64,000 nucleotides of DNA from Anaspis maculata (lineage: Eukaryota > Arthropoda > Insecta > Coleoptera > Scraptiidae). Location: contig OX421967.1 in NCBI GenBank assembly GCA_949128115.1, forward strand, positions 22,894,635 to 22,958,634. Reading direction: 5' to 3'. Below the pieces are notes generated by a model. That model was given only the letters and a program-made list of their open reading frames with translations. It had not been told where the DNA came from and ran no database searches. The position numbers and the translations under genes were made by a program. Position 1 is the first letter of the stretch. Each line of letters starts with the position of its first letter. This document shows, one piece after another, positions 1-58,641 of this stretch.

Positions 1-865
1 CAAACTTGGCATCGTCTCTTGTATGTCGTTGGAAATAGACAAATAGACAAGAGGAGCGGAATGAAAAATCCTTCAACTTTTCAAAAATAAACGAACCGCT
101 TGTTTCTCGATCTATAACTTTTGTCTTGACCAACGACCAATGTCGTTTCTTTCAGATTGGTATTCAATACTTCAAGACGAAAAATTTGATGTATCACTCG
201 TACAGTTCTGTATGCCAGTAGACATAATTTTCATCGTTTTAGGCTATAACGATCCCCCCGTGCCGTGCGAATTTGCCGCTCAATATAGGCACCAGGCGCC
301 TGTCGGACGAAACCGCTTCCCGCGCTTCACTTTGAAAAATCATATCTGCTGAACCATTGGTCCGATTCTTTGCGTACTTTCTTTTAAAATGTCTTCATTC
401 TGTTCTACGCATTTTGTCTCACATAATCACCCATCTATCTTCAATAATAAAAAAAGTACTTCAATGACGAAATTTGGACTACGTTTTCAATGCATGTCTT
501 GTTTTAACAATTTTTTGTGGACTCGCTACTCACCAGATCAGTTTTATTGTGAGCCATCCATAATCTGCTTATGTCAAGCTTTCAATCGGTAGAAGAAATA
601 TTGAAAAAATTTCAAAAATTCGCCGACAATCACGATGTGAGCTGAAAATTATTAGAAATTCGATAGCTCAAGTTCTTCGGCAAAAGAATTTTTTTCGACT
701 ATTTTGCAATCCGCGCGAACGAAATCCTTAGCGAGGTCAGATGCGCAATGAGATTCTGGATATGATGTGTATTTTTTTAACCGTGAACCTAAAAAGTGCT
801 AAGTTTTTATTTTTAGAAGCGTCGTAGAAGGGCCCTGCTCCCTGACTAATATCTCATAGTATACC
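1..865. other. Intergenic, no gene seen
   Basis: AT-rich sequence with only short open frames that lack recognisable domains or splice structure. I see no RNA gene and no clear repeat boundary before the element starting at 866. Confidence 0.5.
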
Positions 866-1199
866 TACAGGTGTTTCAAAAAAAAAAATTCAAACACCTT
901 GTATCTAAATATTGGAAACGATGCGGCTTTATCTTTTGAGTCCAGATACATAATTTGATATTTGAATAAGATCATAGGGTGTTCATTTTCACACTTCCCC
1001 CCGCCAGATTTCTCCCCGCCGAACTTTTTTCAAGAAAAACACCGGAACAGGTCGATTTTTATTTTAAGGGGGACATCTAAGACACGTATTGCCGAGTTCT
1101 CATCGATGAAAATCGATCCATTCCGGCGTTTCTCTTGAAAAAAATTTGGCGGGAAGAAATCTGGGGTGAGAAGTGTAAAAGGAGTGACGGAAAAAAGAA

Positions 1200-1470
1200 C
1201 AAAAAACAAAAGGCCGAAAACAAAACATCGAATGCATAAGGTCGAAAAAGAAAAGGTCGAATTCACAATATATCGAAAGTGATGATGATCGAAATACATA
1301 TGGTCGAAAATACATAATATCGAATAACAGAATGTCGAAAAACAAAAGGTCGAAAAACAATTGGTCGAAGAACAATTGGTCGAAAAACAATTGGTCGAAA
1401 AACAAAACGTCGAAAAGCAATAGATCGAGAAAAAAAAATCGAAAAGAAAAGGTCTAAAAAGAAAAACCGT
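1200..1470 (+). repeat. Minisatellite, left arm (GGTCGAAAAACAAAA-type)
   Basis: Degenerate tandem units of about 15-16 bp, each with GTCGAAAA followed by an A/C-rich spacer. The cleanest run is near 1333-1410, where GGTCGAAAAACAATT repeats several times. Confidence 0.8.
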
Positions 1471-1601
1471 GAAAATCGAAATTGAGCAATAGGTGTATGT
1501 ACAATTGTTGTAAAGACAAATGATTTGAGAGTTTGGGACGGGAGAAGAGAAGCACTGGGTCAAAAATCAACTAGCCCAAATTTATATCTGTAGAAAAACC
1601 T

Positions 1602-2180
1602 AATCAGGCCTTGAAAAAAAAAATACTGAACCTGACAAGGTCTGTGTAGTGTGTGCACCGATTTATGAGTATAGGTCAATTTTGCGTCAAAAAACCGAAT
1701 AAGGTCTGCAAAAAATTACTGAACCTGACGAGGTCCATGTACACAGGTTTATAAGTCCAAGTTAATTTTGCGTCGAAAAACAGAATCAGGTCTTCAAAAA
1801 AAAAATTCACTAGACCTGACGAGGTCCATGTGCACAGCTTCACGTTTCAGAGTGAATTTTGCGTCAAAAAACCAAATCAGGTCTTCAAAAAAAAACTACT
1901 AGACCTGACGAGGTCTATGTACACCGCTTTATGTGTCCAACTTGATTTTGCATCGAAAAACCAAATCAGGTCTTCAAAACAAAATATACTAATTAATGTT
2001 GCGTCAAAAAACCAAATCAGGTCTTCAAAAAAAAAAAAAAAAAAACTACTAGACCTGACGAGGTCCATGTGCACAGTTTTACATTTCAGAGTGGATTTTG
2101 CGTCAAAAAACCCAATCAGGTCTGCAAAAAAATCACTCAACCTGACAAGGTCCATGCGTGCACAGGTTTATAAGTCTTAA
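1602..2180 (+). repeat. About seven tandem ~90-bp units
   Basis: Units begin near 1602, 1699, 1786, 1876, 1965, 2015 and 2115; the fifth is truncated to about 50 bp. Each carries CAGGTCTTCAAAAAAAAA, then GACCTGACGAGGTCCATG, so most units hold a small inverted repeat CAGGTC..GACCTG around an A-run. A TTTTGCGTCAAAAAACC motif links units. Confidence 0.8.
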
Positions 2181-2384
2181 GTTAATTTACGCTGACGCTG
2201 ATCAGATTTAAAAGAATATACAGGTGTTTCGGTGGCCTAGCATAATACTTTGGGAGGTGATTTATCTCTGAAGAATAAGTCGAAAAGTGAGAGTAAAATT
2301 TTTCCTCAAGTGCTCTCTGAGGGAGTCACAGCTCCTCAATCGATCCGAATTGTAATCACATTTAAAACAGGTATTTCTAGTTCG

Positions 2385-2660
2385 ACATTGTGCTATTCGA
2401 CATTTTATTATTCGATGTTTTGCTTTTCGATCTTTTGTTTTTCGACCTTTTGGTTTTCGACCTTTTGCTTTTCGATATTTCACTTCTCGACCTTTTAGCT
2501 TTTGACCTTTTGCTTTTCGATATTTCACTTTTCGATCTTTTGATTTTCGACCTTTTGTACTTTCGACAATAGTGCTTTCGATGTTTTGTGGTTTCGTTAT
2601 TTTGTTTCTCGACTTTATGCATTCGATGTTTTGTTTTCGACCTTTTGTATTTCGATCTTT
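2385..2660 (-). repeat. Minisatellite, right arm (inverted copy)
   Basis: Same unit as the left-arm array in the opposite orientation, seen on the plus strand as repeated TTTTCGACCTTTTG. Together with the left array it makes the arms of the 866-2793 element self-complementary. Confidence 0.8.
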
Positions 2661-2793
2661 TTTCCGTCACCCGTGTAAAAGTGGACACCGTGTATATGAT
2701 CTTATCCAGATATCAAGCTACACATCTGGACTCAGAAGAAAAAGCCGCATCATTTCTAATATTTAGATACAAGTTTTTCTGAAACACCCTGTA

Positions 2794-4074
2794 CACTATA
2801 AGATACAAAAAATTTCGGTGTCCAAATTTAAATTCTACAAGAAAAATGGTTGGAAAAAATTTCTTTCCGCACCCATTTTTTCCAACAAGAAAAATTCCAA
2901 CAGGAGGGGAGGGGGGAGTCTCGGTAGATCACCCTGTACTTGCATATTTATTGAACAGCGATTGCAATTTCACATGTTTGTCTGCTTCACTGTTTCGCCT
3001 TTTTCCATTGAATACTTTAGCTTAAAAGCTGCCTACTTTTCTATACTCTATACACTCATAGAAAGGACCCACCAGATTCCTCCGCTTGAAAAGTAGTCCC
3101 GAGCGTTACCCGCGAAATATGAAATTCCAGTTAGAAAGAGGTGCTTATTTCCGCTAATCACAGCTAAGTGCTATGGTAATTTTAAATGACACCAGTTCAA
3201 TGCCAATTTTTATGAATAAGAGAATAATTTTTTTGAATGAAGCTGATTTTATTACACAACAGTCACAACACTCACAACAGCCGAGCCGACTAAGAATAGC
3301 AAACATCATAGAGAAATGGAGGTTAGAAATCATACGAAGTGTCAAACTCGCCGAATGCAATGCCATTGGCTAGGCGTAGGAATAATTTTCCCGGGTAAGA
3401 CTACCAACCGAACAAAACTAATATTATTTCCAAACGCGCCCATGTTGTAACAGTCTTTGGTGCTTTTATTTGCTATAGGTTACATCAGTGAAATTCAAAA
3501 AAGTCCGTTCTATCGCTGAACAGACTATAGTCAAGTATGTGCAATATTCGCCGAAAGAAATTGCGGATACGCTTCGGCTCTGGCCGACACGTTCTCAAGG
3601 TCGGTTAAGGGCCAAAGCTTCAATTATTTAACTTTTCTAAAGACATCTCGTGGTCGTTTGCCAAAATAATTTGGAAAAAAGGTTTTAAAAGTTGGGCGCA
3701 CCTCATGGAAAATTGACTTGTGTCACAGCACCGTGGAAAAAAAATGTGGTGCCTTTTTTCAGAGAAACTTCCGTTTGAAAGATGACAGTCAAGAACCAAT
3801 GGGCTCACCGCAGAGTGGAACCATGTCACCAATAGGCTCAAAACAAAGTACATATACCTCCTTGTAGCAGCTTTCGAGAACGATCTAAACGGTATTTCTG
3901 TCGAGGAATAAGCCCGCTGCGATTGATTCCGCAACGCCTTATTTTACCAATTCAACTTCATCTCTTCAACTTCTTGAAAGTCAGTAATGAATCGATTTCT
4001 ACAGTGGTAGTAAATGGAAATACAATACGGTGAGTTAATCAATATTCATGGTGATTTCTTAGGCTGTAAAAAGT
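2794..4074. other. Intergenic, no gene seen
   Basis: Only short frames without domain signature. An isolated terminus-like ATCACCCTGTAC near 2928-2940 looks like one end of another CAGGGTG-type element whose partner end I could not place. Confidence 0.4.
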
Positions 4075-5345
4075 TAATAGTACCTTTCATTATCCAGCGC
4101 GCCATCAGCGCGCATACTCGTCTTCTGAAGTAATGGCGTCAAATACAAAATTTGCGAACAAATGCTAGAAAATGGCGTGAAAAACCGCCATAGAGTTGAA
4201 AAATACGCGCCGCAGCGAACAGGGTAATAGGCTAGAGGTTAATACACACTAGTGATTACTCATTTTTTATCAAAAAGTCCGCATTGTTCATTAAATTATA
4301 AATAACTGCGTTTTACATTGGTCGGATGTGTGTACGCAACCCATAATGCAACCCCCAACAACTCTATTTTCAGTTTGACTAGCGAAAGTTCGCAACACTC
4401 GCTACATCAGTGTACTGCGGAATGTATTTTACTTCCAGGGACTTTTCCCACACAATTCAAGAATAGCGGCCCTGTGCTCTTCAAAGTATAAAAATCAGTT
4501 TTTTCGAAACTAAATCAGCGGTGTTATCCTTCCAAAAATCATGGAAAAACAAGTGAAAGGGGCCGTTAAACATTGTGCTCATGGGAATGGGCACAGTGAT
4601 AGTCGGTATAATGACAAAAATATGTATTTCTTTATCCGATTCCCAAAAACGTGCTTAAAATAGCGTAAAAACTTGGTACTGGAGAAATTTGAAAAACACG
4701 CAAAGTCTTGCGAGGAATGTGACAATGTGCACGGTGGGTGAAGCTGTGTAACCGGAAAAATTTCACTCCGAAACGGGTCACCAAGGATAGATTCAATACA
4801 TTCATACACAATACATTCCGGAGTACACTGATGTAGCGAATGTTGCCTAAAATCGTGGTTTTTGGGCAACTTTCGCTACAGAAGTGTAGTACCTACGGAT
4901 TATATAAAACTCCCAGGGACTTTTCTCACACGATTCAAGAATAGCGGCCCACTTGTTCACAAACGTACGACACTCGGAGCGAACTCCAAAATGGCGAATA
5001 AATAGTTGATGTTGACAGCAGACAGCAGCGGAAAGTCACGGCCGTTGCTTGTCAAACTGAAAATAGAGTTGGTGGGGGTTGCATTATGGGTTGCGTACGC
5101 ACATCCGATCAATGTAAAACGCAGTTATTTATAATTTAATGAATAATGCGGACTTTTTGATGAAAAATAAGTAATCACTAGTGTGTATTAACCTCTAGCC
5201 TATTACCCTGTTCGCTGCGGCGCGTATTTTTCAACTTTGTGGCGGTTTTTCTTGCGATTTTGTAGCATTTGTTCGCAAATTTTGTATTTGACGCCAAAAT
5301 TTGGCGCAAGCGTTGGGTATACCACTATAATGAAAGTTACTATTA
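4075..5345. mobile_element. Non-autonomous element with ~300-bp terminal inverted repeats
   Basis: The left arm (about 4075-4380) and right arm (about 5048-5345) are inverted copies. Shared blocks include TAATAGTAACTTTCATTAT-like ends, GCGTCAAATACAAAATTTGC and CAACCCATAATGCAACCCCC. The loop holds two direct ~85-bp copies ending CAAGAATAGCGGCCC (near 4390-4473 and 4866-4950), and a third related fragment occurs far away near 11115-11155. I see no coding capacity. Confidence 0.8.
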
Positions 5346-6181
5346 GGAAACAGGGTAGTAGATCCTTGATAGACCAATTCATTAGTCACGCTAAAGATTC
5401 TAGGTCTTCATTAATTCGCACATAAAATGTTCACTCTTCAAACTTCGTAATTTTCTACAAGCAAAAATAAATTTAGATAGCTACGAGTAAATAATTTGAT
5501 TTGAGAAAAAAAAAGATGCATTGTGATAATAATTATGGGCATAGTACTGCACGGTGGAACAAGGAGCAAAAACTTCAAATCCTCGTTTGCATCCAAAAAT
5601 ATCTGGCTATTACATAACTCACGTAATCAAAGGAAAGCATTCTCAAATGAATGACATCAAACGGATTTCAATATGCAACTAATTGTTCCGAAATTATTTT
5701 CCGACAAAAATAAAACGTATACGTCACAGCAGGAGTAGGCCGATGCTAGGCTACACTCGGTGCAATTCATTGATTTTAATCCAATGTGAATTTCTAAAGT
5801 TATCCCAAACGTCGTACATCATCGGTTAATTTATGATGAAAACCTACACGAAATTCTCGGAGGCTTCCGATGGGATTTCCTTTCGTCACATTTTTACGAT
5901 GAAACAAGATACGAATGCGAGCACATTAACCCTTGCTGGATTCGAAAATGTAATGTTTGACACTAAATAGTCATATTTATGTAATTTTACGTAGATTGAT
6001 GATAAAAGGGAAGACGTACGACGTGTTTATTCAAACATTTCACGTGAAAGATGATGTACGAGCGTTAGTAAAAATGAAGTGAATTATAATACGTAACAAA
6101 AATGTCATGCATCCCAGAGTCGCGATTGAAAGTTTCGATTATGGAAGTGGCGTTTCCTCTTATTTGAGATTTCGGGTACAA
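5346..6181. other. Intergenic, no gene seen
   Basis: AT-rich, no coherent frame, no clear repeat structure. Confidence 0.4.
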
Positions 6182-6630
6182 TGGGTGCTTTCCACCTAGA
6201 TGGTACAAATACCACCAGACGGAACATGTTCCACGATTGGGTACACCTAGATGGAAAGCACCGGCATCGTTGACCGACGCGACATCTCTGGTCTGGAGGC
6301 GAAAGATGACTATGGCATTCAGAAATAAATAAATGGCAGCGCAAATCTTATCGATCGTACGTTATCCCTGCAGAGAAATAAAATAAAACACGGATGCATG
6401 GATGAAACGACACAGAGAGAGACATATGACAACGGAGTGCTGGATTACAGCTGACGGTACGTCATTTGTCGCATCCGTTTCCGGTGTGCCTTCCGACGGC
6501 ACAAAATTTTAGGTGATCCACCGGACGGCACAAAACCAGGTAAGAACACGTAGATGGAAAGCACCGTTTGGAACCCGCACGTGCGCAAATGGAAGGTGTA
6601 CCAAACTTGGAGCTAGGTGGAAAGCACCCA
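6182..6630. mobile_element. Small inverted-repeat element, 18-bp perfect ends
   Basis: Ends are exact inverted copies of TGGGTGCTTTCCACCTAG (6182-6199 and 6613-6630). Two further internal copies of the core AGATGGAAAGCACC lie at about 6249-6262 and 6551-6564. No transposase frame and no confident target duplication. Confidence 0.7.
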
Positions 6631-6909
6631 ATGCAGGCGTGCAGCGACAAAGCGAGAAAAAGATGAACTACACCAAGTCATACCCAGATATGATGATCAT
6701 GCCTTTTTTCGTGGGGCCAAAGTATACTGTTCCACTATCAGCTGTCACTGTCGAAACTAACAAGCGTTGGATTTATTCTTTTCAGTAGTAGGCAATAAAA
6801 AAATCTGCGGATTAGGTACGCTGAAACAGCCCCAAGCAACGTTATAACAGCAATTTTACGCTGACATGATGCATTTTTAGATTTGATATTTGTTTTAAAA
6901 AAAAACGGT

Positions 6910-7021
6910 ATAGGCTGTCTGATTTCTACATGATTCTAGTGGACTGCGATTCAGGCCGCGATCGGCCGATGGCGACCAGAAACACAGCCCACTCGAGTCA
7001 TGTAGAAATCAGACAGCCTAT
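6910..7021. mobile_element. 112-bp hairpin MITE
   Basis: A perfect 24-bp inverted repeat starts ATAGGCTGTCTGATTTCT at 6910 and is mirrored at 6998-7021. The flanking TA on both sides fits a TA target duplication. The loop is GC-richer than its surroundings. Confidence 0.8.
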
Positions 7022-7600
7022 AGATCTAGTTTCTTCGTTTCAATTTTAAATAATAACAACGGTTTGATACTGATTTCATTTTATTTTGATTACAATGTTT
7101 GATCATTACCAACTCTTTCTTTGTGGACTGATGAACTTCCTTTTTTCACTCTGAATTTTTTTTAGTACTTTGCCCTTGCCGGATTTCAAAATATTGTCAG
7201 TGAGCTGTCTATTTGTTGCATAAATCGATGATTTATCGACTAAGACGGTTGTTTTATATTGTTTCAATTCCTATTATACTAGTGACCTTTCTGCGGACTA
7301 ATAAACGTCCCCTTTTCCCTCTAGACCTTCGACAGATTAATAGAAATCTTCATGTTGACTACACAAATCTTATCCGTTAACATTTTAATTGCAACCAACT
7401 GGATGAGGCTATGGTGGAACAAGTACTATTTTTCCTAGAGACTGACACCTATCATATTTGTCAAGCTACTTGCACCTTAAGATGTTAATAGTAGCTCTCA
7501 AACAAGATTTACAGTGGCTGCATAATAGCAGCATCAGCCCTAGAGAGCTCTCGCAACATAAGAACCTTTTGGGACGACAAAAACAAAACAATATTCACAC
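7022..7600. other. Intergenic, no gene seen
   Basis: AT-rich sequence with no frame or repeat that I can support. Confidence 0.4.
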
Positions 7601-14177: not shown

Positions 14178-14509
14178 ATGTAAACAACAATACATTCTAT
14201 GTAAATCGCGGCTCTTGAACAAAATTTTAACAAGTAAAGGTGAACTGGTTTTGGAATGAACTTTGCAAGTAAACTTCATGTCAACTGGGCTTATTAATGC
14301 AGGTGAGCTCACTCGGAAGCACTTGTTGAAAGCGACAAACCTACGCTTGCATAGGCTATTTCGTTTAGGCAGGCCGGCAGGTGCGCATGCGCAAGCGTGC
14401 CAAATTAAAAAGAACCGTACACATGTCAAATTTGAAATTAAATGGCAACACTGCATACCCTGTCTAACCCACTTACATCCAGTTCCACCAGCGAATTTAA
14501 TTGTTGTTA

Positions 14510-14674
14510 GCTAATTGAGATATTTTCTCTGATGGATTCTAGGTCAGTGCTGATTCATGACCACGGAAAATGCATACAAGATGTGATCTAAACATTTTTC
14601 CATAATCTTTTGTGAAACTGGTGTTTTCTGTGGTCACTAAGCCAATATTCACCAGAGAAAATGTCTCAATTAGC
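14510..14674. mobile_element. Nested MITE in the left arm
   Basis: Ends GCTAATTGAGATATTTTCTC and GAGAAAATGTCTCAATTAGC are inverted copies differing at about one position. It interrupts the left arm of the surrounding inverted repeat. Confidence 0.75.
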
Positions 14675-14818
14675 AAACATTGATTAAATTAAATGACAAC
14701 AAACACGCAAATATAGGTACATCTAGCGCCTTTTAGGGCAATATAGCGGTCACCTAGCTCGCATTTTCATGAAACAAAGCTCTCCGCCTACCACAGCATC
14801 AGACGGTCGAACCGAAAC

Positions 14819-14866
14819 TGCACAGACACGTGTTTCGCCCCTACTGGGCGCTCATCAGTGCGCGAG
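14819..14866 (-). ncRNA. Hammerhead ribozyme motif (minus strand)
   Basis: Reading the minus strand: CTGATGAG (14858-14851), stem II around loop AGTA with one mismatch, then CGAAAC, then ACGTGTC, giving a GUC cleavage triplet at 14827-14825. Stem I closes with GCGCA (14863-14859) paired to TGTGC (14824-14820): five pairs including one G-U. The invariant CUGAUGA and GAAA cores are both exact. Stem III is only about two pairs, as in small metazoan type I hammerheads. Confidence 0.7.
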
Positions 14867-15078
14867 CGTTCAGCTCAACCAACCGATGCTGTGGCAGTCA
14901 GAGAACTTATGGTAATATACACCTAAGAGGACTCCTAATATGTGAGTCCTCCAAGCGGCGCCATCTATCAAAGGCATTCCGCAGATGCTGTATTTCAAGG
15001 CATCAGGCATGCGAGGGAATTAACAGAATTCCACGTAAAGCAGCACTGTCGCCAAGAGCATTGATGGTAGGTGAACAC

Positions 15079-15208
15079 ATGTATACTCAAGCCGAGTAGA
15101 GCAATGTTAAAAGACAACAAACACGCAAATATAAAGGCGCAATATTCATTTATATTTGCGTGTTTGTTGTCTTTTAACATTGCTCTACTCAGCTTGAGTA
15201 TACATGTG
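15079..15208. repeat. Near-perfect hairpin at the centre of the inverted repeat
   Basis: About 57-bp arms with almost complete identity, e.g. AGACAACAAACACGCAAATA at about 15112-15131 mirrored at about 15155-15175, around a 16-nt loop. The same GACAACAAACACGCAAATAT block also occurs at 14694, left of the left arm. Confidence 0.85.
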
Positions 15209-15550
15209 TACAGTTGCGGCCTCATAATAGTTTACACCGATGACAATCGTGTGGCCAAGCTCATTCAAAATCACGTCAAAATTGAATTAGCATGGCCACT
15301 CGATCGCCGTCGGTGTAAACTTTTATGAGGCCGCAACTTTACACCTACCATCGATGCTCTTGGCGACGGTGTTGCTTTACGTGGAATTCTGTTGATTCCC
15401 TCGCATGCCTGATGCCTTGAAATACAGCATCTGCGGAATGCCTTTGATAGATGGCGCCGCTTGGAGGACTCACATATTAGGAGTCCTCTTGGGTGTATAT
15501 TACCATGAGCTCTCTGACTGCCACAGCATCGGATGGTTGAGCTGAATGCC

Positions 15551-15600
15551 TGCGCACTGATGAGCCCCCAGTAGGGGCGAAACACGTGTCTGACCGTCTG
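15551..15600 (+). ncRNA. Hammerhead ribozyme motif (plus strand)
   Basis: CTGATGAG at 15557-15564, stem II GCCCC / GGGGC (15564-15568 and 15574-15578, perfect), GAAAC at 15579-15583, then ACGTGTC ending in the GUC triplet at 15588-15590. Stem I is damaged: compared with the minus-strand copy about 15 nt after the cleavage site are missing, leaving only two adjacent stem I pairs. Core catalytic positions are intact. Confidence 0.65.
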
Positions 15601-15701
15601 ATGTTGTGGTAGTCGGAGAGTTTTGTTCCAATGATTAAATTCGCTAGTGGAACTGGATCTTAGATACTCGTTCCTGGCTGTAACTGTCATTACTCATTAG
15701 T

Positions 15702-15990
15702 AGATAATTTTTGGGCGTGCAACGGTGGTGGGGGGGACAACCTTGACAGGTCATTGACCCCTGACCTTGACCTTGACCTCGAATTTGACCTTGACCTTGA
15801 AAGTTCATTGACCTTTGACCTTTGACTTTTGACCTTTGACCTTTCACATTTGACCTTTGACCTTTGACCTTTGACCCCTGACCTTGACCTTTGACCCTGA
15901 CCTTGACAGGTCATTGACCTTTGACCTCGACCTTGACCTTACCCTTGAAAGTTCATCCACCCAAACAGGTGGTGGGGGGAGCAAGCGGGA
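15702..15990 (+). repeat. Interspersed repeat with TGACCT array, copy 1
   Basis: Starts GTAGATAATTTTTGGGCGTG and runs into a dense TGACCT array (about 15746-15948), then a G-rich GGTGGTGGGGGG stretch. The same start sequence ends the second copy at 24204-24335 in reverse orientation. By eye there are roughly 18 TGACCT hexamers plus two inverted AGGTCA. Spacing is mainly 0 or 1 nt, so the reverse strand reads AGGTCAAAGGTCA (DR1) and AGGTCAAGGTCA. No coding. Confidence 0.85.
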
Positions 15991-23603: not shown

Positions 23604-24000
23604 GTTATAATCATCATATTATGATCACTATGGTGAAATAAAAGGTACTGAGCATGCGTGAATCTTGAGGTTAGCACTCGAGAAGGAGAATGGTCAAATT
23701 TTTTCTTTTCCCAATGCTGTTATAAAGGTGTGGGTTGTTATGTTATTGTGGCTTCCTACTCAATCAGAACCATAATATTATAAATTGAGGGGTGGAGGGC
23801 AAAATGAAACTTTTGAAATAGTGTTCCGCTATACACCTTGTCCGAAACTGTTGCTGAATTTTTCTCTATTATAATTATCATGTTGTAAATAACTGAGCAG
23901 TCAGATTGCTGTCGCCCGCTTGATTGAAGGTAGGTGCGTTATAAGAACTTCCATTACATTTGTTTTGAGTAACTTTTTGTAGCACATTTTCGTGGTAAAA

Positions 24001-24200
24001 NNNNNNNNNNNNNNNNNNNNNNNNNNNNNNNNNNNNNNNNNNNNNNNNNNNNNNNNNNNNNNNNNNNNNNNNNNNNNNNNNNNNNNNNNNNNNNNNNNNN
24101 NNNNNNNNNNNNNNNNNNNNNNNNNNNNNNNNNNNNNNNNNNNNNNNNNNNNNNNNNNNNNNNNNNNNNNNNNNNNNNNNNNNNNNNNNNNNNNNNNNNN
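24001..24200. other. Assembly gap (200 N)
   Basis: Exactly 200 undetermined bases, so probably a fixed-size scaffold gap. Its right edge is inside the AGGTCA array, the likely cause of the break. Confidence 0.99.
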
Positions 24201-46530: not shown

Positions 46531-49500
46531 TTATTTACAAATCGATTGGAGTCTTTCATGCAGCGGTACATAATTTTCTATAAAATCAAACTCATCACTG
46601 TCACTATCTTTACATTGCTCTTCTTTGAAAGTCTTCTCGAATACATCTTCGTTTTCATTGATGGTAAAGAAGGTGTCTTCAAGCACTTCAAATCCAAGCT
46701 TGTTTAAATTCTCACTGATGCACTTTGGAATTTTCCTCTCCATTATGTTATCTACTATACAAGATAAGTCGAAAGTTTCGTTCCCTTCATCACTCAAATC
46801 AAAAGTTTCGTTATTCTTATTAATTTCTAATGCAGCATTTTTCAAGCTTTCTTTAATACATGGTTCAATTTTGTTGACCAATTTAACTGGTGTAGATGAA
46901 ACCTGCGGTATAAGATAAGCATCCAAAGTGTTGCTTTGAACTTTCTTCTTGAGCTTTTTGATTTTTTTCGGTTTCGGTTCAGAAATTGAAATGTTTTCCA
47001 GTAAACCGCTCAAATCAGCTATCTCTTTCTTGTCCTCTTTCTTTTTCTTCGGCCTTTTCGCAGCGGGCTTGCGTTTCGAGTCCAAGAATGCCTGGACTAG
47101 ACTCGGAAGCGCTGGTTCGACCAAACTCTGTGGCTCTATGGTTGACCACAGCTTTTCTACGTCGATTTCGGCCAACTGTTGGGCGGGTATCAAATCCGCG
47201 AAAAATCCCGCACTGTCTTTCCAAATGATTTCAAATGAAGCCACACCTGGAATTGCCTTCAAATTATCCTTTCTCGAAAAAAAAAAAGTGATAAAGTAGT
47301 ACGTACCTCTGGGATTGCGTATTTTTTTAATTCGTTCTGCAGTCACAATGCCAGAAGTCGCAGGCTTCTTCTTGAGAACTTCATAGTGGACCAACTGCCA
47401 TCGCGTCAGAACTGGAAGGAATTTTTCCACTGAATAGACCTCTTCCCATCCCAAAAAGTGGTTTGTAAATTTCTGGAAATGAAATATTTTGAGCTTGCTT
47501 TAAAACCCAAGTCAGCACACTTCTAGCTCGGCACAAACTGAAATTTAGGGCGCTAGGAAAACGACAACTGACAGTACTTTTTTGCATTTCTCCTTTGTCT
47601 TTCAACAAGCTTGCCCGTCCATGCTCCTCAGAGATAATTTAAATCCCTTCTTTACGGCCTGAAGATGTTGAAATTCCCGAAATAAATGGTGGCCAACGGA
47701 ATGTCGACGATTTAAAAAATTTGTTTTAATTTACCAGCGAGGCAAGTTAAATGACAATCAGTTAATGACTTGCGACTTGATACCAAGTTGGGGTTCAGAC
47801 CGCCGTAAATGCGGTTACCATAGCAACGGCGGTTAATAACCAATCAGACCGCTGTATTTGCCAAGTTACGCCGTCCTAACTTCACGCCTACAACTTGGTA
47901 TGGAGTATGGAGCCCTTGTTCATTAAGCTGTCTAGTGTGTCTAGGGTATAAAATTATCTAACACCTTTTGCAGTAGTAGCTAATTCGCGCTGAGCTGGCA
48001 GTGTACCAGGTTGTAACACACCTCGTATACTCACAACAAATTTAATCAAATCCGGCCTTTTCCATTTCAAATTCAACTCGGAAACGTCATCTTTCCGCTT
48101 GAGGAATTCATCCACAATATTTTCGTCTGGGAAATTCGGGTCGGCCAAAGCTTTGGATCTGACACTCAGTTCGTTCTTGATGGCCAGCCTTTTGTCTTTG
48201 TATTGGGAAGCGTCACAGTCTTGTCCGGTTCTGCACTCGGTGCAACCTTTTTGTCAAACAGATATTTGTTAATAGCTATATAAATATAAGAAATGATTGG
48301 CTGAGGCAAGATGACCGGTAGCCGAATTGTTTCAGGGTGTGGAACAGGTCCTCCAGTAGGTACTACCGTGCCAAGGATCTGATGACGTCAACATTGTTTC
48401 GGAATATCCAAGTCCATAAAAGTCATGATAAACCGGAAGGAGGAAAAGTCCGAGGGAACAAATTCTTAGGGCAAGAAGCCGATCCAGGTACCATCCGGTT
48501 CAATCGGTTCAACCGATTTTGTTCAAATTTGAACCAAAATTTATAGGTCACTATTGAACAATAAAAAACGTTTATCCAATGCTATTGAATAATGCATGCA
48601 TTATTACGCGCATACGTGCCTGCATTTTTCAATACGACAAGATAAAGCACATAGTACTAGCGGTTCACAACATAATCTGGTACAATCCTGCATCCATCAT
48701 CCTGCAAAATGAATAATTTGGCCCGCTGTTCTTTTCGATTACCCCCTGCTGGTCCAGGATTTGGGGAGTACAAGGGGTACATGACTAGTTTTTGCTGCAA
48801 GCACTAAACACTGCTATTGAATCATGTTTGATGTTATTTCTGGATAACTAACTAGAGCCTGCTGATCACGATGTCGCCACTGTCAGAATGATGCGCCTGT
48901 CGGGAGACAATGTAGAGCTGCCAATTTTACTATGGGGGCTTTCTGAATTAATAAATTTTGGTCATCAAAGGGGATGTGTGGGGTACCCATCATTTCTGAC
49001 ATAATCGAGGTCTGCGAACTCATTTCTTTTTGTAAAAATGTAATGGGATGTTTTCAGCGTAGTTGAAGAAACTCTGCTAGATGTCCCTAGTGGTTCGTAA
49101 GGGGCTTGGGAACATTTGTGTTCTGTATGTTGACAGCTCAACCGACTGCTTGTTGTCGTTCAAAATTGAAATGTAACCCAAAAAATTGAGCGACGTTTAT
49201 CAAAAGTGTCAAAGTCTGAAGTGTTGAGTTTCGCTGGCCATTCTTTGTTCGTTGAACAATAACAACGAACGTGAACTGCAGCAAAACCATGCCTGTAAGG
49301 TCAAGGAATAAGAAAGTGCAACTGACGCTACTTAATTTTGAATTCAACACTTCGCCGAAGTGCTCGTCTGAAGATGCTCAACAGAGTTTAGTTTGGGTGT
49401 TATGGTTCTGGTCTCCTCCTGCTTCCTGCTTTGTGTGAAAGAAAAGGCGACATGAGAATACGAGTTAGAATCATCGATAAAACCTGGTAGTTTTTACATA

Positions 49501-52500
49501 ATCTTGTTTATTAAAAACGTTCCTAAAATAATTTGCATGGCTTTCATTCGACCTCCTTGCATAGCGCGCTGAAGTTTACGTTCAATTCAGTGGTTGTGGC
49601 TACTCTCTGGTTGTAGTCTGCAGTCTGCACTACACCTTCTAGTCTCTTCAGGCTCTCAAGCTACGAAGTTATCCACAGAACCATTTGTGGCCGCGCCTTT
49701 CACAGGGTGCGTGCTTCTCTCTTCTTTGTGTGAACAGAAATTTATGCCGCAATTTCGTCACATCACCCAGCAATAAGAAAATTGTGTTCGATGTTCAATC
49801 GATTTCTATTATTGTATCTTCATTTATACCAAGCTGTTCAGCACCAAGGAGCTTTCGTACAAAGACCGTGCGTGATGATACGGGAATGGGAAATCTGGAA
49901 CTGACAACAGCTGCCACATAGACAATTTAGCATTCGGCATATTTGGCAACGACTCTATGGCAACGACCACAACCTGTTGCAGAACCGTCACATTCAAAAA
50001 TCCCGCTGAAATATTATGGCAGCCGAACCAAGGATGTCTATACTACTGGCTGGATAAGAAACTTCGCTGCCATCTTGAAGCTTGATCTGACGCTGTGCCC
50101 GTCGGGATTGTCATCGTGACATTCGTGACGGACGCCGCCAGCCTCTTGTGCATCCATGGCGAATATTAGCTATTTTCTGTGGCGAATTATCGTTAATTAT
50201 GCCGTGCAAGCCCAATAGTGTTCACAACAAGCGGACCCCGTAACATAACACACTTTTTGTTGCAAGTAATTGTCTAATTGCTATCATTTTACAAGACCGG
50301 GCGAAGGATCGGGCCTGGCAGCAAACTTTTGAACGACAGTTTCGAGTGTGCTCTGGTGTGCTCCGATTGAACGTCACTATGGTTACGGGTGACACTTTGC
50401 CCGTCGGGATTGTCAAATCTCAGCTTCACCTTTTCGCGTCAAAACCGGCGAAGCTTCTTGTCCAGTTAGTATAGACGTCCTTGAGCCGAACTGCATCAGT
50501 GTCGCCAATTTATGATAATTGAATGTTTCTCAGCCCCTTACGAACTACCAGGGACATCTATTGAGAACCTGTCAGGAAAACATCCCATTGGTTTGAAACT
50601 GTGGAAAATATGTTGGGTCAAAATTATGATTATTGATTTTCAAACATTTACGATTGTACGATTTTTTATGCTAATATAGTTATGCAACCAAACATACATT
50701 CAAAAGACCATCTACTAGTTTTGAAATGTCTATGGGTGTAGGCGGCATATGACAGTGGCTAAATGAGCGGTGGACTATTTTCCGGGGGGACATTTGAGCC
50801 GTGGGATGAATTATTGGTGTGAAGACTCGGGGATAAATGCGTGGTGGACCATTTTCCGGTGGACGTTTTAGCAGCGGATGTCCTCGCGGTGGGAGAACTC
50901 GGGGATAAATGAGTCGTGGACTTTTTTTCCGGTGGGACGTTTGAGCTGTGCACTGATTTCGCTGTGGACCACTGAGTGGGCTCCCAATAGAGACCTGTTT
51001 TAGTAAACTTTGGTTCGAATTTGAATAAAATCGCTTAAACGGTTCAAAAGTTTTGCAAAAAAAAACAGCTTTGGAGGCCTGTATCTCCGTTATTACGTTT
51101 GCGAGAGTCTTTTTATTAAGAGAATCGCCCTTACTTTTCAATTTTCTATCTCCCTCTAAATTTTGTTGCATTAGTTTCGGGACACCTGTATAACTAAAAA
51201 TTCGAAACGAAAACAACAAACCTGATTTTGTATGCGCCTGTATCTTGCCGTGATGCCCACAGGACGTGCAGACATTTTTATCGGAAATTTTTCTTTCGAG
51301 CGTTTCGTAATGGTCACTTTTTCGACGCCAACTTCTGAGTTTCTCCAAGATTTTGTCGTCGCCAACTTGTTCGAACAGCTTCAAAACCGATTCTTTTCCC
51401 ACGCCGTGAACTCCGTCGGAATAGTCGCTGCCGCAGAGCAAGGCCAACGCAACGATTTTGTTTCTTCCCAAATCTGCACTTAAAAAATATATGTAATCGG
51501 ATTATGCCGTTAGTCACTTTGACTGAATTGATATTTTGACAGCAAAGTCAACTCCAAATACAAATAGCAAATTAATAATTCGCACTTTTCCTTTCTACAG
51601 TGATTTGAATATTAGATATGTTCTTGAGCGCATGCGCACTCCGCAAGAGTACATCTCACGCACATGAGAGATGAAGTAGTTTCCATGGAGTTTCAAGGAA
51701 CATGTGGTTGACTCTCTTCTCGATCTGCGCATGCGTTTTGAATGTTCAAAATGGAATATTCTAATTTCATTTTTTTTTATTATCAAAAGAAGGCGATACA
51801 TTAAACAGTATGAAGAAGAAAATACATATAGGGAGAGAAAAGCAGTATATAGGTACTGAATAAATATTACAAAGAACATACTCAATGCAGATTCAACCTT
51901 GGTGACGTCACAAACATCCACGGAACCACCCTTCGATGCATTTGCGCCTTGTTGGGAAATTGAAAAATTCCTGTAGACCACTCGACCTCCATAAGCGAAA
52001 CAATCCGAATCTTGGCTTATTATTCCGTCTACTAGCTGGAAAAAAATAACGAAATATAACAAATAGAAGTATAAGTTGACTGGAGAGTATTGTACCTTGA
52101 AACAACTTTTCAGGAAATGTTCATGTTTTTGTCTGGTTTCAGTGAGGTCTCAGCAGCATTTTTTATGGTACCTATGTGTAATGTCTAATAGCCCAGTAAA
52201 TAACATTGGAGTGAGTAGTTAATTCCCACAAATTTGCATGATTTTTTCTTAATAATTATGTAATGACAACTCAAAAGCAATTCAAAAGTCGAACATTGTT
52301 GGGTGTATAATTTTCATGATATACAGGTGTTTCAAATTTAAATCGCGTCCTTCCAGGAAATGATGGGAAATGTCAAAAGAAGTAGACTTTCTCGGAAAAA
52401 TATATGTCAGAAACGAATAATAACGGAGATATATAGACGTTCAAAGTTGAACTTTGAAAATCGATTTTTCGTCATAACGTTGGAATTTCTTAACAGATTT

Positions 52501-55500
52501 TGTTGAAAGAACCGTAGATTACTGAAATAAGTCTGTATCTAACAATAGTAATGCGTTCTATGAAAATTTTTCAGGGACGTGGATAATGAGGGATGCCTCC
52601 GCTTTTTCACCCCTATTTTTTACCCCTCCAAGTAATTTTGGAGATTGTTCGTACTTTTAAATCTTCCGTTCAATTTTGAAGAAAAAGTTACTCTTTCAAA
52701 ATTTTGATTGAATGCCTTGTTCCCAAGATATTTGGGTTTGAAACTGCGAAAAACACATCAAAATATCCACTTTCAAGAGCCCAAAAAATGTTTTTTCCTA
52801 AAAACTTCTCGTTTCTTAGAAAAACTCATGGTTCATCAACTGAAAACACCTAGAAAACCTATTTCAATGCAGGAATCATTAGTTATCTTGGATTTCAACT
52901 TTTTGACTTTTGAAAGTGCGATGATGGTGTTTTCGAGATGTTTTGCGAAGTTTCAACCTCAAATATCTCAAGAACGAAGCCTTCTATCAAATTTTTGCAA
53001 GAGTAACTTTTCCTTCCAAATTGAATGTAAAATTCAAAAATTTCAATAATTTACAAAATTACTCGAGAGGGTAGAAACTAGGGGTTAAAAAGCGGGAGCA
53101 ACCCCCATTATTCAAGCCCCTGAAAATTTTTGATGGAACGCGTTATTGGTGTTCGATATCGACTTATTTCAGTAAGCTTTGATTCAAATTTGAACAAAAT
53201 CGGTTGAGAAATTCCAAAGCTATGGCGAAAAAACGATTTTCAAAGTTCAACTTGAACTTATGGTTCAAACGCCTATATCTCCCTTATTATTCGTTTCTGA
53301 CATATATTTTTTTGAGAGAGTCTACTTGTTTTGGAGTTTCTCATCATTTTCTGGAAGGACGCGATATAAATCTGAAACACCCTGTATATCCGGCAAAAAT
53401 GTTGCGCAATGGAGTTTTTTTGAAGCATTGTGATCTGCGAAATTGGGCTTTATGCTTTACGCATGCAGCACGTCTCTGTCTCGACTTATTTTCCTTTCAG
53501 AATGAATTTAATTTAGATGTATTGCAAATATAATTAACATTGATAATATTAAGATTGATTTTTGTTCATAAATCAATACATTATATGTATTATCTAATTT
53601 TTGTCTAAGTAGTGTTTGTTTTAATTTCAGACTTGAACATTACCTAAAAATCAAAATTTCAAGAAAATATCAGAATATCGGATATACAGGGTGGTCCTCG
53701 TTTTATGTCATTAAATTTAAGGATCGATAGAAAATGAAAAATGAAGGGGACTTTCTTCAGAAAACATATTTGAGAAATGCCTAATAACAGAGATACAGCC
53801 CTTCAAAGTTGGAAATAAATAATCGTTTTTTTTTGCATAACTTTTGAACCGTTCAACCGATTTCATTCAAAATAGAACCAAAGGTTTACTGAAATTATCC
53901 CCTGTCGAACAATCATAACATGTTTCATAAAAAAGTTTCAGGAGCGTAGATATCAGGGGGTGTTCCTACTCCCCCCCCCCCCTATTTCTCACCCACCAGT
54001 TATTTTCAAAAACTGTTCACGATTTTGAATTCTACGTTCAATTTAGAAGAAAAAGTCACACTTGCAAAATTTTGATTAGAGGCTTCGTTTAGGAGATATT
54101 CGAGTTTGAAACTTTGGAAAACATCCCGAAATCGCCACTTTCCAGAACCCAAATTGTTTTTTTCCTGAAAATTTCCCGTGTTTTTGGAAAAATGGTGGTT
54201 TATCAACTTAGAAATTCTATAAAACCTATTTCAGCTGAGAAATCATGAGTTTCTTTGGATTTTAATTTTTAGACCTTTGAAAGTGGCGATTTCGGGATGT
54301 TTCCCAAAGTTTCAAACCCAAATATCTCCTAAACGAAGCCTCGAATCAAAATTTTGCAACCGTGATTTTCTCTTCAAAATTGAACGTAGAATTCAAAATT
54401 GTGAACAGTTTCCAAAAATGACTAGGGGGTGAAAAATAGGGGGAGAAAAGTAGGGTCACCCCCTAATGTCTAAGCCCCTGAAACTTTTTTATGGAACATG
54501 TTATGATTGTTCGACAGGGGATAATTTCAGTGAACCTTTGGTTCTATTTATAATCAAATCGGTTGAACGGTTCAAAAGTTATGCGAAAAAAACGATTCTT
54601 CATTTCCAACTTTGAAGGGCTGTATCTCTGTTATTAGGCATTTCTCAAATATGTTTTCTGGAGAAAGTCCCCTTCATTTTTCATTCTCTATCGATCCTTG
54701 TATATCGAATATATCAATAAAATATCCGATATTATGATATTTTGATATTTATATGTATAAATATCATGATATTTTCAAACCCTGCTATCAAGTGAGAAAT
54801 ATATTTATAATTGAATGACAAGCGGAATCGATTCCCATAATAAATACAGGTGTCCAATTTAAGAAAAATTTTCGATGTTTCACCCTGTAGGTACCTAAGC
54901 AGTTGAAGCAAAATGGCTTTGCGGCTACTTTACAGCAGATCTTTATTGTATGTATTATACTTCAATTACTTATCTGCATCTAATAAAAAGAATTATTGTG
55001 ATTTACATTACCAAATCTCATATTTTTTCTACCATCATCAATCACAATTTTTGATGATCCTTAGCAAAAAGTAGCTGTTCATTATAGTTTCACATTAGTT
55101 CATTTGAAGTGGTACACTTGACCTCCTGGCCTTACCGTAAGTACGATCATAGAGGCTCAATCAACAATGAGGCTCAATGGTCTAGGGGTATGATTCTCGC
55201 TTTGGGTGCGAGAGGTCCCGGGTTCAAATCCCGGTTGAGCCCTATTTTTTTTGTGATTTTTTTTTCAAATTCGAACTTATAAACGAGCTTGCATTTTTTC
55301 CACCGTGAATACCGACACGTCTCGCAACTTCCTCAATCCTTACTTTATCCTCGTTCAAATAGGCGCAAAGCGCTTCGGCCTCTCCCTGTCCTTTGACACA
55401 AGCCAAGCCCATCAGCCCGAGCATCTCCTCGCACTTTTTCAAGACGTGATTGAACCTGCTCCTGTCCTTTCCCTTCTCGCTCGGCTTGGCGTTGGCGCCC

Positions 55501-55881
55501 TCCTTTCTCGGCCTGGCCCCCTTGAACTGGACGGCGTTCCGGGCTGCAATCGTGCCGTACTTGAGCTCCGGTGCCTTGCCTTCCAGCACAAACACGGGCG
55601 ACACGTCCATCATCAGCAGACAGCAAGTGCGGAAATACAGCGTCCTGAATTTTCCCGCAATGAGACAATTTAGAAAAGTTTCCACACACTATTTATTTTT
55701 GAAATGAAATTTGAAAAATTAACCTCAAATACATGCGGGGCTGGATACTGTAATCGGTGACGCACTGGGATTCGCACACCCATCCCGAGAGGTCGATCGC
55801 CACTTTCTTGCCTTGCAGTTCGTACAGGGGCTTGCGGTCGCAAAAGGGGGTCAAAATCGGCCACAAATCTTTGATTCCCAT
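46531..55881 (-). CDS. Gen: GEN1, XPG-family Holliday junction resolvase
   Basis: Seven exons, 55881-55724, 55644-55344, 52035-51882, 51473-51222, 48246-48035, 47472-47307 and 47246-46531, give 1959 nt (652 residues) with every phase consistent. The enzyme cuts Holliday junctions and other branched DNA in the nucleus. The XPG N domain begins MGIKDLWPILTPF with Asp30 in AIDLSG. The I domain has Glu141 and Glu143 (GQGEAEAL), Asp162 and Asp164 (SQDSDCF) and Asp221 (GSDY), so the acidic metal-binding set is complete. Helix-hairpin-helix GVHGVGKESVLKL follows, then a Cys pair region (CTSCGHHG, CTECRTGQDC) typical of GEN1. A chromodomain-like strand RIKKIRNPRGVASFEIIW crosses the last splice. The C-terminal third is Lys- and Glu-rich and probably disordered. 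The last intron (60 nt) is a multiple of three without stop. AATAAA overlaps the stop codon. Introns hold several mobile elements and a tRNA gene. Confidence 0.93.
47780..47901. mobile_element. MITE in GEN1 intron 5
   Basis: ATACCAAGTTG and CAACTTGGTAT are inverted ends. The core CCATAGCAACGGCGG..AACCAATCAGA resembles 43892-43986 and 56890-56930. Confidence 0.65.
48247..49042. other. GEN1 intron 4, unremarkable part
   Basis: Only short frames. A segment near 48500-48545 (GGTTCAACCGATTTTGTTCA) resembles the interior of the TACAGGGTG-type elements. Confidence 0.4.
49043..50588. mobile_element. Inverted-repeat element in GEN1 intron 4
   Basis: Ends ATGGGATGTTTTC and GAAAACATCCCAT are inverted, and matching continues through AGATGTCCCTAGTGGTTCGT and AAGGGGCT. 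The 1.5-kb body has no supported coding frame. Confidence 0.75.
50760..50950 (-). repeat. Short minisatellite (two ~106-bp units plus part)
   Basis: Units share ACTCGGGGATAAATG and GTGGACCATTTTCCGGTGG-like sequence. This makes a Pro/Ser/Thr-rich read-through frame after GEN1 exon 4, but it lies beyond the exon's donor site and is intronic. Confidence 0.7.
50995..51196. mobile_element. Solo right end of a CACCTGTA-type element
   Basis: Ends TCGGGACACCTGTA near 51178-51191 and carries GGCCTGTATCTCCGTTATTA, shared with the 52322-53386 and 53695-54702 elements. No matching left end is found close by. Confidence 0.55.
52322..53386. mobile_element. TACAGGTGTTTC-ended element in GEN1 intron 2
   Basis: TACAGGTGTTTCAAATTTAA..CGCGTCCTTCC at the left is mirrored by GGAAGGACGCG..GAAACACCCTGTA at the right. 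The arms are long: blocks such as AACGGAGATATATAGACGTT recur inverted near 53260-53285. No coding. Confidence 0.85.
53695..54702. mobile_element. TACAGGGTGGTCC-ended palindromic element in GEN1 intron 2
   Basis: The left end and right end share GGATCGATAGA and AAAATGAAGGGGACTTTCT in inverse. Arms extend several hundred bases (GCCTAATAACAGAGATACAG mirrored near 54620-54640). The right terminus lacks about 35 bp present on the left. Interior segments resemble the 52322-53386 element. Confidence 0.85.
54703..55170. other. GEN1 intron 2, unremarkable part
   Basis: Contains a 43-bp mini-hairpin starting TACAGGTGTCC and ending TTTCACCCTGTA (about 54846-54888). Otherwise AT-rich. Confidence 0.45.
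55171..55242 (+). tRNA. tRNA-Pro (anticodon TGG)
   Basis: A 72-nt cloverleaf. Acceptor GGCTCAA (55171-55177) pairs with TTGAGCC (55235-55241), discriminator C. The anticodon loop TTTGGGT (55201-55207) gives TGG at 55203-55205 on a perfect TCTCGC/GCGAGA stem. The T arm CCGGGTTCAAATCCCGG includes the B box. A TTTTTT run ending transcription follows at 55245-55251. It lies inside GEN1 intron 2 on the opposite strand, only about 100 bp from exon 2. Confidence 0.96.
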
Positions 55882-57767: not shown

Positions 57768-58641
57768 CCGTATGCTTTTGAGATTCAATAACATATTTCT
57801 GTTGACTTGGGGAAACGGTGAGCTACCAGTGGTAAGTCAGGTGCCTGCTAGAGGGAACTGTGAGGTTTTTTCACCCCCAAATTTCCACGGTCAAAATCTT
57901 TGGATAAAACTTTTCAAGTTTGTCCATACGAATAATTATGTCATCTGGTCAACATTCTTCATGTTTCGTCCTTCTAGGGACTCCTCAGCATGGTTTATAC
58001 AGATTTTGCAACCGCGCGAGATCATTCAGACTACCTAGTAAAGTAACCGATTTTGGAATACCGTTTTGCTTGAAATGGGCGAAAAAGGAGTAAATGCAAT
58101 TTCTGTGATTCTAGTGTTAGGGTATGGATAAAGTCAGCCGAATATGAATAAAGTAAATACGTCTGAAAAAAGCACCAATATAAAAATCTTAAATTCCACT
58201 CAGCCCAAAAGATGGGTCGGTAATGTGGAATACTCGTATATCCGAATGTGGACAACTGCATTCTCTGCGAAAAAGAAAAGGGTGTTCCACATTTGGTCCG
58301 GTATTCCACAATAATAATAAAACCAATGAAGCCCGCTAGTCGAGTGGAATGCGTGTCCGCTCGGCAAGTGGAACTCCCGGGTTCGATTCCCGGCACAGTA
58401 GGTCTGGGTTTGTGCTATGGAAACAAAGTTCCTCAGTTTGTGATATTTGGGAATCAAATTCAGCAAACTCCTATGACATATGAAATGCCGATAAGGATAA
58501 AAACAAACAAATAAACAAACAAACAATTTGGGGGTGAAGAAACCTCACAGTTCCCTCTAGCAGGCATCTGACTTACCACTGGTAGCCCACCGTTCTCCCA
58601 AGTCGACAGAAATATGTTATTGATTCTCGAAAGCATATGGT
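57768..58641. mobile_element. Inverted-repeat element inserted into the left arm
   Basis: Ends (CGTATGCTTTTGAGATTCAA at left, mirrored at 58615-58641) are about 110 bp long and run through CAGTTCCCTCTAGCAGGCA. The uninterrupted right arm of the host palindrome gives the empty-site sequence, so the insertion is certain. The exact target duplication is not clear. Confidence 0.85.
58331..58530 (+). mobile_element. tRNA-derived SINE with (AAAC)n tail
   Basis: GCCCGCTAGTCGAGTGG contains an A box and GGGTTCGATTCCC a B box about 45 nt later. The body is about 110 bp and the tail is AAACAAACAAATAAACAAAC. The tRNA-like part could fold an anticodon arm, but the acceptor ends do not pair, so it is a SINE rather than a tRNA gene. 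Confidence 0.8.

Follow-up and report, generated by a model that had tools for sequence, protein, structure and literature searches.

Animal retrozymes have been described as tandem hammerhead units for which Penelope elements are a strong candidate helper (PMC7229834). Penelope-like elements are likewise named as likely retrozyme helpers in PMC7761336, where the two are noted to have type I hammerheads in common and to co-occur. In Penelope elements themselves, the pseudo-LTRs (pLTRs) may be inverted, mostly head-to-head, with a tail optionally present on one of them and a duplication of the target (PMC3846280). A Penelope enzyme studied in purified form cleaves both target strands and extends them, and two internal start sites delimit the tail (PMC11167929). 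Among the titles and abstract openings that we searched, we found no mention of retrozyme copies that are inverted or tailed.

Here we analyse a locus in a stretch of 64,000 nucleotides of the Anaspis maculata genome (the window), together with related copies elsewhere in the genome. Like the retrozymes it has a short unit with a hammerhead, and like the Penelope elements it is inverted, tailed on one side, and bounded by a duplication.

Two mirrored hammerheads in one insertion

The window contains two type I hammerhead cores, at 14832-14858 on the minus strand and at 15557-15583 on the plus strand, facing outward. The minus core reads CTGATGAG...CGAAAC from 14858 to 14832, with its GTC triplet at 14827-14825; the triplet of the plus core is at 15588-15590. 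The arms that carry both cores (14823-15073 and 15342-15592) have a complementarity of 95%, and they are extended by the pairs 15072-15135/15149-15212 and 14770-14808/15592-15630. An earlier sequence-only reading of this DNA had placed one core on each strand, in mirrored arms of an inverted repeat, and its positions, GTC triplets, and mirror placement are all borne out. So is its account of the plus copy: this copy has a perfect stem II of 5 bp (GCCCC/GGGGC) and, compared with its relatives, lacks 15 nt of the 3' strand of stem I after GTCTG (junction 15592/15593), a loss that probably disables its ribozyme. Stem I of the minus copy, which the same reading had described, was found intact. That copy also has a G.G mismatch in the native register of stem II, a detail absent from the earlier reading, and RNAfold favours a shifted register in which a core G is paired. 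The folding energy of the long hairpin around it is -64.9 kcal/mol for the ribozyme strand and -42.2 kcal/mol for the complement. Both copies carry the conserved core letters and have one damaged stem each; both ribozymes are predicted to be impaired, and the window copy as a whole is probably inert.

Scored with the Rfam model Hammerhead_1 (RF00163), the plus copy reaches 22.7 bits and the minus copy 19.2 bits. The gathering score is 34, so identification within the window alone depends on the letters of the core and not on the covariance model. A loose form of the core pattern occurs 10 times within the window against 5.8 expected, which is unremarkable. A third core-like match, at 57964-57988 on the minus strand (CTGAGGAG...CGAAAC), has a stem I that is unconvincing by eye, is absent from the Rfam result for the window, and is probably due to chance.

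The two hammerheads belong to one and the same retro-insertion, of which each represents one half, and which lies within an older palindromic MITE (Table 1). When the flanks of the window insertion are joined, they align with an uninterrupted palindromic MITE at another locus (L010) with 185 identities over 262 columns; this empty-site alignment is good at both ends and over the junction, and poor in its middle part. The MITE within the right arm is an insertion later than the retrozyme arms. The sequence-only reading had taken the block at 14.5-15.7 kb for a relic of a hammerhead-carrying Penelope element or retrozyme, a view that is now supported. New with respect to that reading are the single insertion with its duplication, the ORF-less 419-bp unit present in many copies, the varying inner junction, and two distinct fixed 3' sites.

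Several other features of the window were observed. A minisatellite of the TTGACCT type occupies 15740-15948; some 100 bp separate its start from the right end of the insertion. Three minus-strand segments (46534-47499, 50680-51501, and 55242-55688) appear by eye to be pieces of a gene for a GEN1/XPG-family nuclease; the protein of the first has 15 database matches, including proteins bearing PF18704 and one from Callosobruchus chinensis (31% identity). A stretch at about 24000-24200 translates as X and is possibly a gap.

Table 1. Features of the insertion and its surroundings in the window
Feature	Position	Strand	Basis or remark
Whole retro-insertion, inverted head-to-head retrozyme arms	14691..15631		941 bp including the later MITE; 10-bp duplication at its bounds
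Target-site duplication, left, TGATTAAATT	14681..14690		Flank comparison
Target-site duplication, right, TGATTAAATT	15632..15641		Flank comparison
Long arm, its 3' end ('tail') near 14691	14691..15135	-	Full unit plus wrap-around, from unit position 13 to position 40 of the next; 92% by blastn to the 419-bp unit
Short arm, ending 3' with unit position 384 (...TTTTGTTCCA)	15135..15631	+	Unit positions 418-75 and 72-384, split by the MITE
Secondary MITE in right arm (GTTGCGGCC.../...GGCCGCAACTT)	15213..15339		TACA repeats on both sides
Older palindromic MITE, left part, host of the insertion	14480..14690		Repeat and empty-site comparison
Older palindromic MITE, right remnant	15642..15656		Repeat and empty-site comparison
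Minus hammerhead core	14825..14858	-	Predicted cleavage 14825/14824; stem II with G.G mismatch
Long hairpin (extended stem I) enclosing the minus hammerhead	14778..14896	-	Folding energy, both strands
Plus hammerhead core	15557..15590	+	Perfect stem II; predicted cleavage 15590/15591
Site of the 15-nt loss in stem I	15588..15600	+	Comparison with the other aligned hairpins

The repeat family, its unit, and its ends

The pattern CTGATGAG-N(4-30)-CGAAAC was searched in the genome (758 Mb in 50 contigs) and matched exactly at 997 + 957 = 1,954 places, versus 20 + 26 = 46 for a reversed control pattern; the cores of the window are therefore not chance occurrences, and other genomic copies that keep the core, as the sequence-only reading anticipated, are abundant. 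This copy count is that of one pattern search, and the structure of the element as described below is that of loci on one chromosome. Among the first 100 places listed, a stem II is possible in 75 and impossible in 25, and 15 have a long spacer and resemble, by eye, two unrelated repeats. Exact-core pairs less than 1 kb apart in these 100 places have the minus core on the left and the plus core on the right in all four cases. Two repeat families that fit the loose core with long spacers (CTGATGAGCTTCTTTGTG... and CTGATGAGCCCCCTACTT..., in which stem II is seemingly impossible) inflate counts of the loose pattern; G000:C1:10617913 and G000:C1:11710625 are examples.

We picked 36 loci of the window's family, here called family A, by eye from these first 100 places, taking known pairs first and omitting some family-A-like places; all 36 lie on contig C1, and with the window they make 37 loci. 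The unit was defined from L009 and then refined, and the ends of the arms were defined by chained matches against it. Family A has a period of 419 bp, no ORF, and a hammerhead that starts at unit position 293 (u293). The end of the unit is joined directly to the start of the next, without an intervening ORF, in the window and in L019, L040, L017, L009, and, a hAT insertion aside, L038; direct copies exceeding one unit are found in L019, L038, and L040. In the plus copy of the window, an ATG within the core opens a frame of only four codons before a stop (ATG AGC CCC CAG TAG).

L038 was considered as an autonomous Penelope element and rejected, as the gene between its two units (4 kb) encodes a hAT transposase (Pfam PF05699); a second ORF there has no match. 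The hAT element is flanked by an 8-bp duplication, CCATCGAT, read by eye, and L038 is thus a direct retrozyme dimer split by a hAT element. Within this dimer the hAT element spans 3281-7187, with one ORF of 303 aa, another of 385 aa that gives the PF05699 match, and the TIR TAGGGATGTCCAA. By eye, a short element whose TIR begins identically is present inside an arm of a sister family, family B, at L027 (about 2384-2580).

Copies of family A have two recurrent 3' ends: one, called short, at about u385 (...GCTTTGTTTCAT), and the other, called tail, 72 nt past the short end, around u38 of the following unit (...GTTTGTTGTCTTTTAA). Inverted loci make up 19 of the 37, and in all 19 the minus arm is on the left and the plus arm on the right, with the 3' ends outward (head-to-head). 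The remaining 18 are single-orientation loci, among which we count L039, where a second piece in opposite orientation is 2.1 kb away. L010, in which a palindrome at 550-4600 holds two mirrored family A insertions, each beside an intact palindromic MITE, was counted once; the palindrome may be a genuine inverted duplication or may result from the assembly.

Of the 19 inverted loci, 14 allowed the classification of both 3' ends (all except L013, L033, L034, L045, and L046). One end is short and the other is tail in 13 of these 14, a result with a chance of about 0.001 of being equalled or exceeded under an independent coin toss; the exception, L043, is short at both ends and may be two insertions. 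Target-site duplications with a score of at least 8 flank 10 of the 14 classified loci, versus 2 of 182 mismatched pairs of flanks, and all ten of these loci have the mixed short and tail ends. The duplications in the ten are about 8-14 bp long, the window included, and that of L024 (score 8) is displaced by a few bases from the predicted ends. No duplication scoring at least 8 was found in L012, L030, L037, or L043, and among the single-orientation loci tested, 1 of 11 reached that score (L036). No inner junction common to two inverted loci was seen among the inverted loci of the unit-match table; since the junctions differ, the inversion seems to be made anew at each insertion.

Family B, whose stem II is ACC/GGT, looks the same in its short and tail ends and in its duplication, as far as these can be read from the sequence of L050. 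Two outward-facing hammerheads lie there between copies of TATTCCAGAATA at 1437 and 2070, a duplication of 12 bp. By eye, the left arm ends in ..TTCCAT and the right arm 44 nt beyond the equivalent ..CTTCAT; the local alignment of arm to arm extends about 20 nt past ..CAT with gaps, so the position of the short end is a judgement. L027, which is also inverted, has no target-site duplication that we could find.

The expectation that a covariance model would recognize these ribozymes holds for family B and fails for the two copies in the window. In a scan of 16 fetched loci at Rfam gathering scores (the family B loci L026, L028, L049, and L051 were left out), all three family B loci scanned passed, in five places and with a maximum of 46.5 bits, both hammerheads of L050 being among those above the threshold; none of the 13 family A loci scanned reached the 34 bits of the gathering score.

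The structure of family A was examined in an alignment of 41 hairpins, two of them from the window (L020, L022, L029, L032, L036, and L046 are among those left out). A structure of 39 pairs has 92.5% of its cells paired across the 41 hairpins, versus 30-43% for structures with one side shifted by 1-3 columns, a comparison that favours the structure because it was derived from one of the aligned sequences, which are moreover related. Cells changed on both sides number 34, versus a mean of 14.1 after shuffling (reached in none of 500 shuffles), and the pairs with a double change number 11 versus 6.9 (reached in 8 of 500). The double changes are concentrated in the outer stem I hairpin (30 cells), with two cells each in stem II and the inner part of stem I and none in stem III, whose helix consists of two pairs and an ACGU loop. 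The hairpin around the hammerhead thus covaries in the 41 family A copies, and covariation in the stems of the core is thin. Departures to wobble pairs outnumber those to A.C by 89:40 when counted by cells and by 27:20 when counted by positions (p 0.38), and we do not rely upon them.

Origin of the inverted copies

We consider it probable that these copies form a non-autonomous, ORF-less retrozyme family, with a 419-bp unit and a type I hammerhead in a long hairpin, that inserts by Penelope-type target-primed reverse transcription, probably from two sides. A Penelope-like reverse transcriptase with a GIY-YIG endonuclease would make a staggered cut in both strands of the target, and each new 3' end would serve as primer for the copying of retrozyme RNA, with one of two internal start sites used per end. 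The two partial cDNAs would then be joined in mid-element, giving a palindrome with one tailed arm. Cleavage by the ribozyme would yield RNA that is of unit length or circular, and the template would be RNA that is uncleaved or re-ligated, either a multimer or a circle.

The state of this template can be approached through the inner ends of the arms. The arms run intact through the hammerhead cleavage site, and some go more than once round the unit. None of 46 inner ends falls within 10 nt of the cleavage site, where about two would be expected by chance, so that there is no excess. Nine loci (L014, L022, L029, L031, L032, L033, L036, L039, and L041) were left out of this count, some of them because a start at unit position 282 resembled an alignment artefact, and adding them changes nothing. 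There is accordingly no sign in these ends of a hammerhead-cleaved linear monomer as template; uncleaved RNA or a circle would fit them better.

A stricter form of the proposal is that retrozymes of this genome insert by two-sided priming in which the two start sites of the RNA are divided strictly, one to each DNA end, on a circular or uncleaved template. We put this forward tentatively, as a reading that may well prove wrong. It would make the palindromes with one short and one tailed arm the first genomic record of retrozyme integration, and of Penelope machinery carrying it out. In the in vitro study, start sites showed no difference from strand to strand, and the hammerhead proved dispensable for insertion (PMC11167929); both results count against the proposal as a whole.

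An inverted arm could also arise by self-priming, in which the cDNA of a Penelope-type insertion folds back and copies itself, as has been proposed for the Penelope elements of Adineta (PMC3846280). A palindrome is present at the junction of the window copy, and a 2-nt indel that distinguishes subfamilies is the same in both arms in 10 of 10 pairs (by eye, in the hairpin alignment), so the two arms of an insertion probably derive from a single RNA or source. The two arms of an insertion are often not each other's nearest relatives, a point that weighs against copying of one arm from the other; it is a weak one owing to later mutation, and the relationships are too noisy to settle the template. 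It is the ends that tell the two mechanisms apart. Copying by fold-back is expected to give equal 3' limits, yet 13 of 14 classified loci pair a short end with a tail; two-sided priming fits this rule better, and we regard self-priming as unlikely.

Alternatively, the copies might be truncated derivatives, solo pLTRs, of an autonomous Penelope element with its ORF elsewhere, in which case there would be no separate retrozyme family. A pLTR with a tail is an established Penelope architecture (PMC11167929, PMC3846280), and Penelope pLTRs are known to carry hammerheads (PMC7761336). The direct joining of the unit's end to its own start in six loci, without an ORF in the junction (the hAT insertion of L038 aside), is difficult to reconcile with this explanation, as is the early stop after the ATG in the core of the window's plus copy. 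A Penelope-type reverse transcriptase beside the arms, which the sequence-only reading had led one to look for, did not appear either: when 36 ORFs of at least 150 aa, the longest in 43 fetched loci, were scanned against Pfam, none matched GIY-YIG. With these points against it, an origin as solo pLTRs seems improbable.

Two of the 36 ORFs, in L028 and L048, matched RVT_1. The fragment in L028 (819-2106, minus strand) follows a family B hammerhead of the same strand, with a distance downstream of about 0.8 kb. We rejected L028 as an autonomous element on account of weak matches to R2-type proteins and a maturase, an adjoining ORF that is unmatched, and the absence of GIY-YIG; one homologue of the reverse transcriptase piece was found. 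We tentatively take the piece to be part of an unrelated LINE.

Had a foldback DNA transposon or a MITE captured hammerheads in its terminal inverted repeats, it would be DNA-borne and would keep a fixed palindrome. Such an element would account for long inverted repeats, terminal duplications, and the want of an ORF. The inner junction varies among the inverted copies, however, 18 of the 37 loci have a single orientation, and some have direct tandem units. The outer ends, moreover, are unequal, one having 72 extra nt, and the ribozyme strand of the hairpin pairs better than its complement, all of which makes such a transposon very unlikely. It is scarcely credible that a tandem satellite containing hammerhead-like cores was duplicated in inverted form by chance, with no transposition involved: animal hammerheads are indeed frequent in tandem repeats (PMC7229834), but these copies are dispersed, with duplications and an empty site, and all 19 inverted loci share one orientation.

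Relation to known retrozymes and Penelope elements

Judged by its sequence, the family of the window appears to combine a retrozyme unit with Penelope integration. Previous proposals have linked retrozymes to Penelope helpers, and ORF-less retrozyme copies that bear the Penelope signature of tail, inversion, and duplication constitute structural evidence for that link. The rule of one short and one tail end further provides a means to tell two-sided priming from self-priming.

As ribozymes, the cores of both families share with Hammerhead_1 of Rfam (RF00163) the conserved core, stems I-III, and the GUC cleavage triplet. Sister family B lies above the gathering score of that model, whereas the window copies and the scanned family A loci lie below it, and stem I of family A is far longer.

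With the animal non-LTR retrozymes (Cervera and de la Pena 2020, PMC7229834), the family shares a short unit without an ORF (419 bp here versus about 170-400 nt published) and a type I hammerhead whose helix III has two pairs and a tetraloop. Some copies in direct partial tandem and duplications longer than 4 bp are further points of likeness. The published retrozymes are presented there as direct tandems, whereas the present family shows head-to-head inversion and asymmetric ends in 19 of its 37 loci.

With the Penelope elements of Adineta (PMC3846280) and Poseidon of Anolis (PMC11167929), as those sources depict them, the family has in common head-to-head inverted repeats with an optional tail on one and target-site duplications, of 8-10 bp in those elements and about 8-14 bp here; Poseidon, too, has a hammerhead within its repeat. 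The family differs from them in that no reverse transcriptase/GIY-YIG ORF was seen in the 36 ORFs scanned, in a tail of 72 nt as against 30-40 nt, and in a family A unit that closes on itself.
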